A stretch of DNA of 64,000 bases from a virus. The stretch is from the IMG/VR virus record IMGVR_UViG_3300029319_009305, positions 43,886 through 107,885 of that record; one strand, given 5' to 3'. The notes beneath the pieces are model-generated. The model was given only the letters and a program-made list of their open reading frames with translations, was not told the DNA's origin and did no database searches. Numbering within the stretch: position 1 is the stretch's first letter; every line of letters begins with the position of its first letter. The position numbers and the translations under genes are program-made. Of the stretch, positions 3,552 through 48,613 are shown in pieces.

Positions 3552-3761
3552 CTATTGATTATCTAGATGTTGATTAAGAAAACCTTGTAGGGCACGGGCT
3601 TCTTTAACAGTCATCGTAATTTGAGAACTAGATGTTGAATATTTTGATTCAGGAATTCTAGTTCCAATTGTAAATGTATTTGCACCTGCTTTGTGAGATC
3701 TAGTGTCTCTTCGAATTCCAAAATTAAATCTTTTCGTGTTTTTAGATTTAGAATAGCTCAT
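3552..3761 (-). CDS. Small basic protein, unknown function
   Basis: 69 residues read on the minus strand after a good AAGGAG. The first half is rich in Lys, Arg, Ser and Thr; the second half ends with a helix (VKEARALQGFLNQHL). No family recognised. It faces the plus-strand gene at 3092 and shares a terminator with it. Confidence 0.5.
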   Translation of the reverse strand: MSYSKSKNTKRFNFGIRRDTRSHKAGANTFTIGTRIPESKYSTSSSQITMTVKEARALQGFLNQHLDNQ

Positions 3762-3888
3762 ATGTTTTTACTCCTTTACTTTACTAAAACATAAACATTG
3801 GTTTTGTTACAAAAAATTTATTAATTTTTAATTGAACCAATATTAATATTATAGCTAATTTTTATTACATTTACAAAATTAAATTAAA

Positions 3889-10606: not shown

Positions 10607-12541
10607 ATGTCACAAAAAAAATTCCTTGAACTTATATCAAAACAAAGACGTAAGAACAAAAAAGAAAAATTCAAAGGTACGTTTCTTGAATACTTAGAGG
10701 TTGTACAAGATAAACCAACAACAATAAAATTGGCTCATAAGCGATTGTATGATGTAATCAATAATCAAGGTATGAAAACAGTAGATGTTGGTGACGAAGA
10801 TTATAGGCCATATTTTAACGGTGAAAAACTTAGAAAATTTCAATATTTTGAAAAAGAATTTTTTGGGATGGAAACTGTTATTCATAAATTAATGCAGTAT
10901 TTAAAATCAGCTGCTTTAAAAGGTGAGGAAAGTAGACAAGTTTTACTTTTAATGGGCCCAGTAGGCGCAGGTAAGTCTGCACTTATAGAACATGTTAAGC
11001 AGTCATTAGAAATGACTGATCGAATCTATCATTTAGATGGGTGTCCCATAAGAGAAGAACCTCTTCATTTAATACCTAGAAGTTTAAGACCTCAATTTGA
11101 AGAAATGCTAGGTATACACATTGAGGGAGATTTATGTCCTGTTTGCAGGCATAGACTCATGGAAGAGTTTAATGGAGAATATGAAAACTTTCCTGTTACA
11201 CAAAGCAGCTTTTCTCAAAGGGGAAGAAGAGGAATTGCTGTTGTTCCTCCCATGGACGCTAATTCTCAAGATGTTTCTGTTTTAATTGGTACAGAGGATA
11301 TATCTAAGCTTGATCTGTATCCAGAAGATGATCCAAGAGTTTTATCTTTAAATGGTGCTTTTAATGTAGGAAATAGAGGGATTGTAGAATTTGTAGAAGT
11401 TTTTAAGAATGAAATTGAATTTCTTCACACAATGTTAACAGCTACCCAGGAAAAGCGTGTACCTTCACCTGGAAAAAATGATATGCTTTATTTTGACGGT
11501 GTGTTGTTAACACACTGTAACGAATCAGAATGGAACAGATTCAAGGGTGAGCATACAAATGAGGCAATTTTAGATAGGGTTTTGAAAATTAACGTGCCGT
11601 ATGTTTTAGAGTTAGATCAGGAAATGAAAATTTATGAAAAAATGATTAATAGGTCAGACTTTAAATCAGCACATATCGCACCACATACTTTGAAAATTGC
11701 TTCAATGTTTTCTGTTATGAGTAGGTTTATTCCATCCTCAAAATGTGATTTATTGACAAAGATGAAAATCTACAATGGCGAATCAATAATTGAAAAAGGT
11801 AGGGTTAAAAAAATAGATATTAAAGATTTAAGAGCTGAAGCGCGTAACGAGGGAATGGAAGGCATATCCACAAGATTTATTACAAAATCTCTGGATAGGG
11901 CTTTAAGCGATTCAGATAAGAATATGATTACACCAATTAATGCTATCGATAGTTTAGTTAAGCAAGTAAAAGAACAAATAATCGATGACGATGCAAGAGA
12001 ACGCTACTTAGAAATCTTGCAAGATATAATTCGTGAAGAATATTTAAGAATTCTTGAAACAGAAATTGCAAAAGCTTTCATAGCAGCTTACGAGGAACAA
12101 GCACAGAGTTTATTTGATTCATACTTAGACAATGCTGAATGTTATACTACTAGAACAAAAGTTAAGGATAGAATTACAAGAGAAGAAAGAGAACCTGATG
12201 AAAAATTTATGAAGTCAATTGAAGAGATGATTGGTGTTGTAGGTTCTGCTAGGGATGGATTTAGAAACGATGTAACAGCTTATATGTTTGCAAAAATGAG
12301 AAAAGGGGAAAAGGTTGATTATTCAAGCTACGGACCGCTTAAAGAAGCAATCGAGCAATTTTTAATTACATCAGTTAAAGACATATCTAGAATTGTTACG
12401 AAGTCAAAAAGTAGAGATGACAAACAAAAAAGAAAGTATTCGAATATGATTAATACGCTTGTCGAAGATTATGGTTATACACCTGATAGTGCTGAGGAAA
12501 TATTGACTTACGCAGCTAATAATCTTTGGAGAGACAGTTAG
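10607..12541 (+). CDS. prkA: PrkA/YeaG serine protein kinase-like AAA+ protein
   Basis: 644 residues, close to the 630-645 of bacterial PrkA. The AAA+ core has Walker A GPVGAGKS at 117-124 and a CPVC pair (177-180) as in PrkA. The following segments (FSQRGRRGIAVVPP; FVEVFKNEIEFLHTMLTATQE; AILDRVLKINVPY) match the conserved PrkA core, and a C-terminal kinase-like domain follows. Bacterial members are reported as Ser/Thr kinases or AAA+ proteases/unfoldases of the starvation response. GGGAG lies before the ATG. All main motifs appear intact, so activity is plausible. Confidence 0.88.
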   Translation: MSQKKFLELISKQRRKNKKEKFKGTFLEYLEVVQDKPTTIKLAHKRLYDVINNQGMKTVDVGDEDYRPYFNGEKLRKFQYFEKEFFGMETVIHKLMQYLKSAALKGEESRQVLLLMGPVGAGKSALIEHVKQSLEMTDRIYHLDGCPIREEPLHLIPRSLRPQFEEMLGIHIEGDLCPVCRHRLMEEFNGEYENFPVTQSSFSQRGRRGIAVVPPMDANSQDVSVLIGTEDISKLDLYPEDDPRVLSLNGAFNVGNRGIVEFVEVFKNEIEFLHTMLTATQEKRVPSPGKNDMLYFDGVLLTHCNESEWNRFKGEHTNEAILDRVLKINVPYVLELDQEMKIYEKMINRSDFKSAHIAPHTLKIASMFSVMSRFIPSSKCDLLTKMKIYNGESIIEKGRVKKIDIKDLRAEARNEGMEGISTRFITKSLDRALSDSDKNMITPINAIDSLVKQVKEQIIDDDARERYLEILQDIIREEYLRILETEIAKAFIAAYEEQAQSLFDSYLDNAECYTTRTKVKDRITREEREPDEKFMKSIEEMIGVVGSARDGFRNDVTAYMFAKMRKGEKVDYSSYGPLKEAIEQFLITSVKDISRIVTKSKSRDDKQKRKYSNMINTLVEDYGYTPDSAEEILTYAANNLWRDS

Positions 12542-15089: not shown

Positions 15090-15323
15090 TTAAGAGAGTA
15101 CATTTTGTACTCTTTTTTTTATCTTTTTTATGATGTTCTTTTCTATTTGACAAACTCTCATTCGTGTTATGCTGTATAACTCCCCTATGTCTTGTAAAGT
15201 TTTAGGTCCATTATTAGCACAATTAATAACACAATTTTGATTATCTTTAATTTTTAACCAATATCTGCATGATTTTTTGTTACATAATTTATCATTATTG
15301 GCATAGTATTCGTAGCACTTCAT
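15090..15323 (-). CDS. Stand-alone sigma-70 region-4 protein with N-terminal Cys cluster
   Basis: 77 residues from ATG 15323, preceded by GGAG; an ATG 18 bases upstream lacks such a site. The C-terminal half (GPKTLQDIGELYSITRMRVC, then QIEKNIIKKIKK) is the helix-turn-helix of sigma-70 region 4.2, which reads the -35 box (compare LEEIGxxxxVTRERVRQIExxALxKL). The N-terminal half has Cys at 3, 14, 19, 30 and 34, possibly a metal site. There is no region 2, so it cannot act alone as a sigma factor; it could pair with the gp55-like factor at 47846 or redirect host RNA polymerase. Divergent from PIN-PhoH. Confidence 0.65.
   Translation of the reverse strand: MKCYEYYANNDKLCNKKSCRYWLKIKDNQNCVINCANNGPKTLQDIGELYSITRMRVCQIEKNIIKKIKKRVQNVLS
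15095..15120. terminator. Intrinsic terminator
   Basis: Stem AGAGTACA (15095-15102), short T loop, TGTACTCT (15106-15113), followed by seven more T. It ends the PrkA operon. The same hairpin falls in the last codons of the opposing minus-strand gene. Confidence 0.8.
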
Positions 15324-15399
15324 AATTATTAACGTCTCCATTTCAACTAATTAATGTTTATTATAACGAGACAATCTAAAATTAACAATTGGAGTTAAA

Positions 15400-16713
15400 G
15401 TGAGAAAATTATTTATTGTTGACACGTCTGTTCTTTTGTACGATAAGAGCTCAATACATTCATTCCCAGAAATTGATATTGTAGTGCCATTAGTTGCCTT
15501 AGATGAACTTGATAGGTTTAAAGAAAAAAAAGGTGTGACAGGAGAATCTGCACGATATGTCAATAGATTTTTAGATGAATTAAGAAAACTTGGTAGTTTA
15601 CATGAAGGGGTAGAATTAGAAAACGGTCAAACAATCAGAGTTGCTTTAGAAGGTTACAATAGTGTTCCTGAAGGCTTAAATGGTGATGATGCAGATAACA
15701 AAATGATATCGTTAGCTTTGGTGCTATCTAAAAGCCAAGAACAACCAATTACCTTGATCACAAAAGATATTAACTTCAGAGTTAAGTGTGATGCTTTAGG
15801 GATTAATTCTGAAGACTACTACAAGGACAAAGTAATTGATTTTGAAGATGAATCGTACAAAGGCTTTGTTGAGTTAAAAATAGATCCTGAACATGATCAC
15901 TTGATTGATTCTTTCTACGACGACGAGGATATTCTAGAAGATTTTGAAGATTTACTTGGGCGCAAACTTTTTCCTAATGAGTTCTTGACTGTAAAGTCTG
16001 GTAAAAGTAGATCTATGATTGCTTGTAAGAGAAATAATAGATTAAGCAAGGTCAAAGAGACTGGTCAACTTGAAGATTTTATGGGCATTAAACCTAGAAA
16101 TAGAGAGCAGCTATTTGCTTTAGACTTGCTTACAAATGATGATGTACCTTTAATATCATTGACAGGAATAGCAGGATCAGGAAAGACTTTTCTTACACTT
16201 ATGGCAGGTTTAGATGGTTTAAATAAGAAAAGGTATAAAAGAATTGTAATAACTAGAAATATTCAACCTGTTGGTAGAGATATTGGGTTTTTACCAGGAG
16301 ATGCAAATGAAAAAATGCTACCTTGGATTGCACCAATTATGGATAATTTCAGGCAAGGCACTAAAGACGAAGACATGTCTTATTTTGAAATTATGAGAAA
16401 AACAGGAAAGATCGAAATAGCACCGCTAGCTTTTATGCGAGGAAGAACATTCTCAGACACATTTCTAATAATTGATGAGTCACAGAATAGCACTATTCAT
16501 GAGTTAAAGACAGTTATAACAAGAATTGGTGAGAATTCAAAAATTGTTCTATTAGGAGATACAGATCAAATTGATACTCCCTATATAGACTCGCTGTCGA
16601 ATGGTTTAACAATAGTAGGAGAGAAATTTAAAAATCAAGAAATGGCTGGGCACATACAGCTTCAAAAAGGTGAAAGATCACCTCTATCTTTTTTGGCTTC
16701 TAAAATTTTATAA
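15400..16713 (+). CDS. phoH: PIN domain-PhoH ATPase fusion (PhoH2 type)
   Basis: 437 residues from GTG, with GGAG upstream. Residues 1-140 form a PIN nuclease domain with its acidic residues (FIVDTSVLL, ALDELDRF, GDDADNKM, TKDINF). Residues about 235-430 form the PhoH P-loop domain with GIAGSGKT (about 255-262) and Walker B LIIDESQN. PhoH2-type proteins join RNA cleavage and RNA unwinding; phoH is also a common marine phage marker gene. It follows a divergent region and precedes the glycan locus. Confidence 0.85.
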   Translation: MRKLFIVDTSVLLYDKSSIHSFPEIDIVVPLVALDELDRFKEKKGVTGESARYVNRFLDELRKLGSLHEGVELENGQTIRVALEGYNSVPEGLNGDDADNKMISLALVLSKSQEQPITLITKDINFRVKCDALGINSEDYYKDKVIDFEDESYKGFVELKIDPEHDHLIDSFYDDEDILEDFEDLLGRKLFPNEFLTVKSGKSRSMIACKRNNRLSKVKETGQLEDFMGIKPRNREQLFALDLLTNDDVPLISLTGIAGSGKTFLTLMAGLDGLNKKRYKRIVITRNIQPVGRDIGFLPGDANEKMLPWIAPIMDNFRQGTKDEDMSYFEIMRKTGKIEIAPLAFMRGRTFSDTFLIIDESQNSTIHELKTVITRIGENSKIVLLGDTDQIDTPYIDSLSNGLTIVGEKFKNQEMAGHIQLQKGERSPLSFLASKIL

Positions 16714-47538: not shown

Positions 47539-47862
47539 ATGGACATAATGATCGCTATAATCATTGTTTTGGTATTATTTTGCACATTTAGTACTTACTA
47601 TGCTGTAAAGTTTGGGTTGTTGTTGTTGCGTTTACAAGACGACATAGAAATGTCGTTGGATGAGATTGAAGAAAGTTATGAAGTTATGACAAAGATTTTA
47701 CAGAAACCTATCTTTTTTGATTCCCTTGAAGTTCGACAATGTGTTGATGAAATAAAAAAATGTAGGAATATTGTTGTCAAAGTAGGTAACCGATTAACTT
47801 CTTTTGGAAAAAATGAAAATGAAACAACAGGAGAGTTATCATACGATGAAGGCGAAAGGTAA
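47539..47862 (+). CDS. Single-span membrane protein with coiled helix
   Basis: 107 residues. Residues 3-30 form a membrane helix; the rest is a charged helix rich in Glu and Leu with RLQDDIEMSLDEIEESY. No family recognised. Its end overlaps the start of the late sigma factor by 17 bases. Confidence 0.5.
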   Translation: MDIMIAIIIVLVLFCTFSTYYAVKFGLLLLRLQDDIEMSLDEIEESYEVMTKILQKPIFFDSLEVRQCVDEIKKCRNIVVKVGNRLTSFGKNENETTGELSYDEGER

Positions 47863-48613
47863 AAAAAGAACAGTTAAGACAACTAGAAGGTCAAAAAATA
47901 AAAAATCAAATAGAAAATTATATTTTGGACCGACCACAGACCAGGCAATTTGCGAATTTCAAAAATCCAATTCACAAGAAGAAAAAACAGAAATATACAA
48001 GACGATTATTCAACCAAGTTTTGCAAAATTAGCAGAAAATTTGATATTTATTCATGGGTTTGCTAAGCATCACCATAATTACGAAGCTTTAAAAGGTGAT
48101 TGTGTATCGTTTCTGTATGAAACATTACAAAAGTTTGATCCCGATAGGGGTTCGAAAGCTTTTTCTTATTTTAATGTCGTTGCAAAAAATTGGTTAATCA
48201 TACAGAGCAAAAAAAGACTTAAGAACATTACTAGACACGTTAGTCTTACTAATTTTAATGATATGAAGGCAACAGATAAAGAAGCGATTGAAATGTACAA
48301 TTACATGCCATCGCAGGACTATCGAGTCATCGCAATTGAAAATAAGCAAATTTTATTTGAAATACTAAGAAAAATTAGAAAAAAAATAAGTACTCAAAAT
48401 GAAATAGCATGTATGAACGCGATAGAGACACTCTTTAATAAAATAGAAGAATTGGATTTCTTAAACAAAAGAGCAGTCTTTATTTACATGCGAGAAATAT
48501 CGGGATTGACGCCAAAACAATTATCAGTTGCAATGTCTAATATTAGAAAACATTACAAAGAAATAAAAGGAACAGACACAGAGTATTTTTCTTTATTTTT
48601 TGTGCAGGAGTAA
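47846..48613 (+). CDS. T4 gp55-like late sigma factor
   Basis: 255 residues from ATG 47846 (AGGAG lies 12 bases upstream, a bit far; further in-frame starts lie upstream). Residues about 75-140 hold a sigma region-2 pattern: CVSFLYETLQKFDPDRGSKA, then FSYFNVVAKNWLIIQSKKR, which corresponds to the T4 gp55 core and the -10-binding helix. There is no full region 4. T4 gp55 (185 residues) directs host polymerase to late promoters together with the sliding clamp. Its place just before baseplate genes fits. The region-4 protein at 15090 could complement it. Confidence 0.7.
   Translation: MKAKGKKRTVKTTRRSKNKKSNRKLYFGPTTDQAICEFQKSNSQEEKTEIYKTIIQPSFAKLAENLIFIHGFAKHHHNYEALKGDCVSFLYETLQKFDPDRGSKAFSYFNVVAKNWLIIQSKKRLKNITRHVSLTNFNDMKATDKEAIEMYNYMPSQDYRVIAIENKQILFEILRKIRKKISTQNEIACMNAIETLFNKIEELDFLNKRAVFIYMREISGLTPKQLSVAMSNIRKHYKEIKGTDTEYFSLFFVQE

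Follow-up and report, generated by a model that had tools for sequence, protein, structure and literature searches.

Which protein, if any, completes a sigma factor whose -35-reading part is encoded as a separate small gene? The question is raised by a gene, here called r4, on the minus strand (15090..15341) of the window, the 64,000-nucleotide stretch of viral DNA analysed here, which forms the final 64 kb of a 107,885-bp virus contig (G000). The r4 protein counts 83 residues from its upstream ATG and 77 from a second ATG at 15323. The original prediction, made on the 77-residue form, saw in it a sigma region 4 lacking region 2 behind a cluster of five cysteines. It suggested that the protein could form a split sigma factor with a gp55-like protein encoded further along the window, or could on its own alter the choice of promoters, the cysteines acting as a metal or redox sensor.

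Domain content and conservation of r4

The window protein matches the Pfam Sigma70_r4 model (PF04545) with 35.3 bits (E 8e-9, cut-off 24.1), and this is the sole match to the model in the 107,885-bp record. Residues 38-76 align with profile positions 12-50; in most relatives the match starts at about position 18 and covers 18-50, and all 25 relatives scanned match the model. The region 4.1 helix, which occupies the start of the profile, is not covered in the window protein, in which coverage begins at position 12. The Pfam model of region 2 (PF04542) has no match in r4 or anywhere else in the record, and r4 alone lacks by this search the part of a complete sigma70 that reads the -10 element and binds core polymerase. 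The first part of the original prediction, a region 4 helix-turn-helix without region 2 in a 77-residue protein, is thereby confirmed, and on its profile matches r4 is classified as a sigma70 region 4.2 helix-turn-helix that stands alone, preceded by a cysteine module.

Five cysteines do precede the helix-turn-helix in the window protein, as had been predicted, but the cluster is conserved only in part. C3, C14, C19 and C31 (77-residue numbering) are invariant in the family (26 of 26 aligned members), whereas the fifth, C35, varies among relatives. The spacing in the window protein is CX10CX4CX11C, within a pattern C-X10-C-X4-C-R-X-W...NC, and the four invariant residues make a metal site plausible. 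A sixth cysteine, C58, lies within the recognition helix and is also invariant; the aligned family shares the motif TLQEIG..[IV]TRMR[VI]CQIEK.

At least 154 relatives of r4 are present in IMG/VR, and a chance open reading frame is ruled out because both sequence and gene order are conserved across dozens of contigs. The gene is found in every related contig that spans its location. In relatives showing both genes, r4 stands by itself and is transcribed divergently from a phoH-like gene (15400..16713, plus strand in the window), and the adjacency to phoH is kept in two contigs (G008 and G009) in which the neighbours on the other side have changed. A 644-aa protein encoded at 10607-12541 on the plus strand, with about 32-35% identity to serine kinase/YeaG (PrkA-type) genes of Thermus phages, forms with its neighbours a conserved row upstream of the r4-phoH pair in relatives. 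A putative terminator-like hairpin read from the sequence (GAGTAC-ATTTT-GTACTC plus a T-run, 15096..15121, plus strand) would serve the upstream plus-strand operon and overlaps the 3' end of r4.

The predicted promoter of r4 itself (15360..15388, minus strand) consists of TTGTTA (15383-15388), a 17-bp spacer and TATAAT (15360-15365), a host-like form which is the most frequent one among relatives and falls outside the phage-specific class described below. In six r4-phoH intergenic regions (L014, L016, L018, L022, L026 and L013), the leaders and first codons of the two genes are near-identical and place the r4 promoter between the two arms of an inverted repeat, which vary alike between relatives. 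An invertible promoter was considered and rejected: at least 19 exact shared bases occur in just 4 of 77 distinct intergenic regions, so the identity of the leaders is a subclade trait.

A bacterial origin of r4 was likewise rejected. The full-length matches in bacterial metagenome-assembled genomes, one assigned to Legionellales (L119) and one to Flavobacteriales (L120), are embedded in DNA of phage character that shows the phoH-r4 gene order of this group, and these contigs probably represent phage sequence that was binned with bacterial genomes; the remaining genome matches are ordinary sigma factors. A wider family combining cysteines and helix-turn-helix could not be traced in cultured phages, where the matches were to sigma-factor helix-turn-helices alone, with zero full-length relatives.

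A sigma70 body cut after region 4.1 and a phage promoter class

When related contigs were searched with the Pfam region-4 model, weak matches appeared, most of them to model positions 1-18, in proteins of about 250 aa. These proteins are sigma70 factors with regions 1.2, 2, 3 and 4.1, of which 1.2, 2 and 3 are strongly matched (region 2 with E about 1e-21). The sigma body ends 5-35 aa (once 55) past the motif RLRFGI in all 80 loci of one scan. In a separate scan, the lone full-length sigma among the 41 loci read was a distant homologue on a 427-kb contig (L417), which retains region 4.2. A generic region 4.2 model, sensitive enough to detect r4 with E 5e-13 and L417 with E 2e-10, detects no region 4.2 near the cut sigma genes, whichever frame is read, a result on which we rejected the idea that r4 belongs to a sigma gene broken by a frame shift or interruption.

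The domain contents of the two proteins are complementary, the body carrying regions 1.2, 2, 3 and the start of region 4, and r4 the rest of region 4. Judged from the profile alignments, region 4 is thus divided, with the start of the Pfam model on the body and the remainder on r4. The cut body presumably cannot form a helix-turn-helix, its first helix being missing; the tail of one body (G045) aligns weakly up to profile position 40-42. Past region 4.1 the bodies show a loose NFPITxxELxxL motif, which aligns with the recognition helix of L417 (alignment A4) and may be a worn remnant of that helix or, possibly, a docking peptide for r4.

Among the contigs found with r4, nine exceed 205 kb, and every one of these also carries the cut body (G004, G007, G008, G009, G010, G042 and IMG/VR 3300022935_000005, 3300028384_001500 and 3300011113_000805). 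In G010, for example, the body gene occupies 229725-230507 and r4 122572-122793. However, r4, the body and the promoter box described next all come from one clade, and these co-occurrences are not independent events. Two body-bearing contigs longer than 230 kb have no r4 among the best 80 matches listed per scan. The body is absent from the window's own incomplete 108-kb record, and we infer that it is located in the missing part of this phage's genome.

The promoters of these phages were searched by tabulating all hexamers at all distances upstream of TATAAT, with no motif assumed. The procedure can be relied upon because it recovers the known T4 elements (early GTTTAC and a Mot-box-like element) and gives TTGACT in pelagiphage HTVC008M and cyanophage P-SSM2. 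In the window's record, GTGCAA stands 17 bp before TATAAT 17 times, compared with 0.06 expected. The corresponding hexamers are GTGTAA in G007 (20 against 0.15 expected), GTGCAA in G010 (13 against 0.09) and a variant, CTGTAA at 19 bp, in G009 (11 against 0.07); TTGACA at 16-18 bp occurs 0-1 times in each of these four contigs. The pattern GTGYAAN{16,18}TATAAT has 19-36 matches per contig in six r4-bearing contigs (G000, G004, G005, G007, G010 and G011), compared with 0-1 in T4-like controls without r4 (T4, HTVC008M, P-SSM2, KVP40 and S-PM2). The aligned sites give the consensus cRTGYAAA-N16-TATAATA, and we write the class as cGTGYAAA-N16-TATAAT; its TGYAAA core is retained across genomes of 29-45% GC.

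In the window's record the sites lie mostly before small genes at 10-42 kb, upstream of the window, and one candidate member falls within the window (TGTAAA-N16-TATAAT, 3848..3875, minus strand), before the open reading frame 3552-3761. Several shorter r4-bearing contigs have no GTGYAAA sites, possibly because late genes make up most of their content. Two outgroups, Microcystis phage Mel-JY01 and LR756508 (an uncultured phage of 484 kb, searched over its first 200 kb), possess neither r4 nor the GTGYAAA box, and carry gp55-like genes related to those of the window's group. Six contigs with the promoter class and no r4 (G028, G031, G033, G041, G045 and G047) were considered as counterexamples and set aside: phoH and the PrkA-type gene are absent from all six, which are therefore fragments of the same phage group not covering the r4 stretch. 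In five loci (L388, L391, L393, L394 and L395) the cut sigma gene itself has TG[CT]AAC-N-TATAAT about 60-80 bases upstream, and such a TGYAA-type site may drive the gene's own expression in a positive feedback. A similar TGYAA string in another subclade overlaps the end of the upstream coding sequence and was left out of the evidence.

The recognition helix of r4 is altered at two of the three sigma70 positions that matter for -35 specificity. In E. coli sigma70, E585 and R588 affect the preference at -33, and R584 that at -31 (PMC2613000). The r4 sequence TLQEIGxxxx[IV]TRMR[VI]CQIEK aligns with TLEEVGxxFxVTRERIRQIE of solved structures of housekeeping sigma factors, from which r4 differs by the lack of regions 1-3 and 4.1, by its added Cys4 module and by the recognition helix itself: where sigma70 has TRERIRQ, r4 has TRMR[VI]CQ, with R584 kept, E585 replaced by Met and R588 by Cys in all aligned members. 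Since both E585 and R588 are replaced, a changed -35 box is expected for r4. From its position and its co-occurrence with the gene, we infer that this box is GTGYAAA; the suggestion that the small protein alters promoter choice fits such a phage-specific -35 element.

Alternative partners and roles

The promoter class could also be explained if r4 appropriated the -35 region of host sigma70, in the manner of T4 MotA with AsiA, and redirected the host holoenzyme to GTGYAAA, the cut body acting elsewhere. At T4 middle promoters, too, TATAAT is kept and the host -35 element is replaced by a phage box (PMC2988021), and the presence of r4 in all related contigs covering its place would suit such a role. 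However, the T4 system acts on host sigma70 through a box centred at -30 (PMC2988021), whereas the GTGYAAA box stands at -35 with normal spacing in phages that encode a cut sigma70 of their own, and the missing region 4.2 in all 80 of these loci would be left without explanation. A MotA-type factor was also rejected on homology, as no MotA homologue exceeds noise: a search with PHROG 1345 finds none in the window's record and one weak match in G007 (E 0.0035, 13.8 bits), compared with E 1e-99 for the T4 control. We regard this reading as unlikely.

Alternatively, GTGYAAA could mark immediate-early promoters for unmodified host sigma70, r4 being a small regulator of another kind. T4 early promoters do deviate from TTGACA, as the recovered GTTTAC illustrates, and are nevertheless read by the unmodified host enzyme; the GTGYAAA class, moreover, lies within the presumed early region. 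Yet GTGYAA shares only three of six bases with TTGACA, TGYAAA is kept over 29-45% GC although TTGAC[AT] is the rule in the cyanophage and pelagiphage controls, and the cut sigma is again unaccounted for, which makes this explanation quite improbable.

The pairing favoured by the original prediction, in which r4 and the gp55-like protein form a split late sigma comparable to T4 gp55 with gp33, fares worse. The gp55-like gene (47846..48613, plus strand, the open reading frame extending up to 47804) is present in all 17 related contigs searched, and r4 accompanies it in 14 of the 17. Its identification as a late sigma factor without region 4 is upheld by its relatives: 13 of 21 hit PHROG 234 ('late sigma transcription factor'), the best of them with E 5.6e-6. 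The protein of the window has no such hit, a profile comparison with T4 gp55 alone is weak but colinear, and no PF04545 match is found in the gp55-like protein. Many members, including the window's (48560-48613, plus strand), end in an acidic-hydrophobic tail such as EYFSLFF or FDIFF (alignment A2), a possible counterpart of the sliding-clamp-binding motif of T4 gp55. The place of gp33 could moreover be vacant, since a profile search of the 17 contigs (PHROG 254) gives one weak match (E 0.046), although divergence may hide gp33 where the gp55-like protein itself is barely detected.

T4 gp55-gp33 resembles the present case in that a phage sigma activity is placed on two proteins that use the host core, and in that r4 phages also carry a gp55-like gene. 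However, gp33 binds the beta flap and reads no DNA, and T4-type late promoters have no -35 element and need no -35 reader (PMC2988020). In contrast, r4 has a DNA-reading helix-turn-helix and seems to be partnered by a sigma70 body rather than gp55; it shows no profile similarity to T4 gp33, which dismisses it as a gp33 equivalent, and lacks the acidic, hydrophobic C-terminal end seen in the gp55-like family. The candidate late promoters of these phages point the same way. A strand-biased ATATTTA(T), without a -35 element, stands upstream of open reading frames longer than 200 aa in G009, G010, G041, G045 and G007, with strand counts of 13 versus 0 in G009 and 7 versus 0 in G041; it often precedes very large open reading frames and is a candidate late-promoter element of the group. 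Together, ATATTTA and the gp55-like protein look like a T4-style late system, and because such a system requires no -35 reader we keep the gp55-like protein apart from r4, as probably an independent late-promoter factor. With late-type motifs lacking a -35 box and a better partner at hand in the cut sigma body, a late sigma made of r4 and the gp55-like protein was rejected as very improbable.

Equally improbable is a role of r4 as a local repressor or activator of phoH and itself, since, even though divergent regulators often control their shared intergenic region and the r4-phoH pair is kept where other neighbours change, no shared operator was established in that region and both the complementary cut sigma and the genome-wide promoter class would go unexplained.

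Proposed two-piece sigma70 and its relation to known systems

We consider it likely, on the sequence evidence above, that these phages encode a sigma70 as two polypeptides, with r4 as its detached -35-reading part. The split sigma factor of the original prediction is thus well supported, with the body cut after region 4.1 in relatives as the partner in place of the gp55-like protein. In this proposal, the body would supply region 1.2, region 2 for the reading of TATAAT and the binding of core, region 3 and region 4.1, and r4 would provide region 4.2 in trans, its recognition helix altered for GTGYAAA, a box which at 17 bp from TATAAT would occupy the place read by a normal region 4. The body and r4 would join host core polymerase in a holoenzyme dedicated to early or middle phage promoters. 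The Cys4 module, probably zinc-binding, could form the interface to the body or to the beta flap, and a separate r4 gene under its own host-like promoter would make the GTGYAAA class switchable. Somewhat more tentatively, we lean towards the view that the cut inside domain 4 turns r4 into an exchangeable -35-reading subunit for the phage-only GTGYAAA box, with metal or redox state as a possible switch.

A known case of two proteins sharing a sigma activity is SigO-RsoA (PMC8103513), in which regions 2 and 4 likewise reside on separate cooperating proteins. That system, however, is cut between domain 2 and domain 4, whereas the present cut falls inside domain 4: the body keeps regions 1.2 to 4.1, and the detached region 4.2 is fused to a cysteine module. 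The 'minimal sigma factor' of group 2 jumbo phages, a promoter-binding single helix-turn-helix that may stand beside a fuller RpoD-like sigma, is also similar, and the survey that reports it sees in it what may be a relic of ancient sigma factors (PMC7824862); the passages of that survey devoted to it describe no body lacking region 4.2, no pairing, no cysteine module and no matching promoter class. In the open-access full-text literature we found no sigma70 that is divided between regions 4.1 and 4.2 and has a promoter class to match. Sigma activity on separate proteins is thus known already, and what appears to be new here, as far as genes and promoters tell, is the 4.1/4.2 split together with its promoter class.

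The reading of the -10 and -35 elements is normally locked within one sigma polypeptide. If our proposal is correct, a natural sigma70 split at 4.1/4.2, with promoters to match, would make directly testable both the removability of -35 reading and the way in which a phage uses it to time its genes, and abundant uncultured marine phages would offer a compact orthogonal promoter system. It may also account for the 'minimal HTH sigma factors' of large phages.
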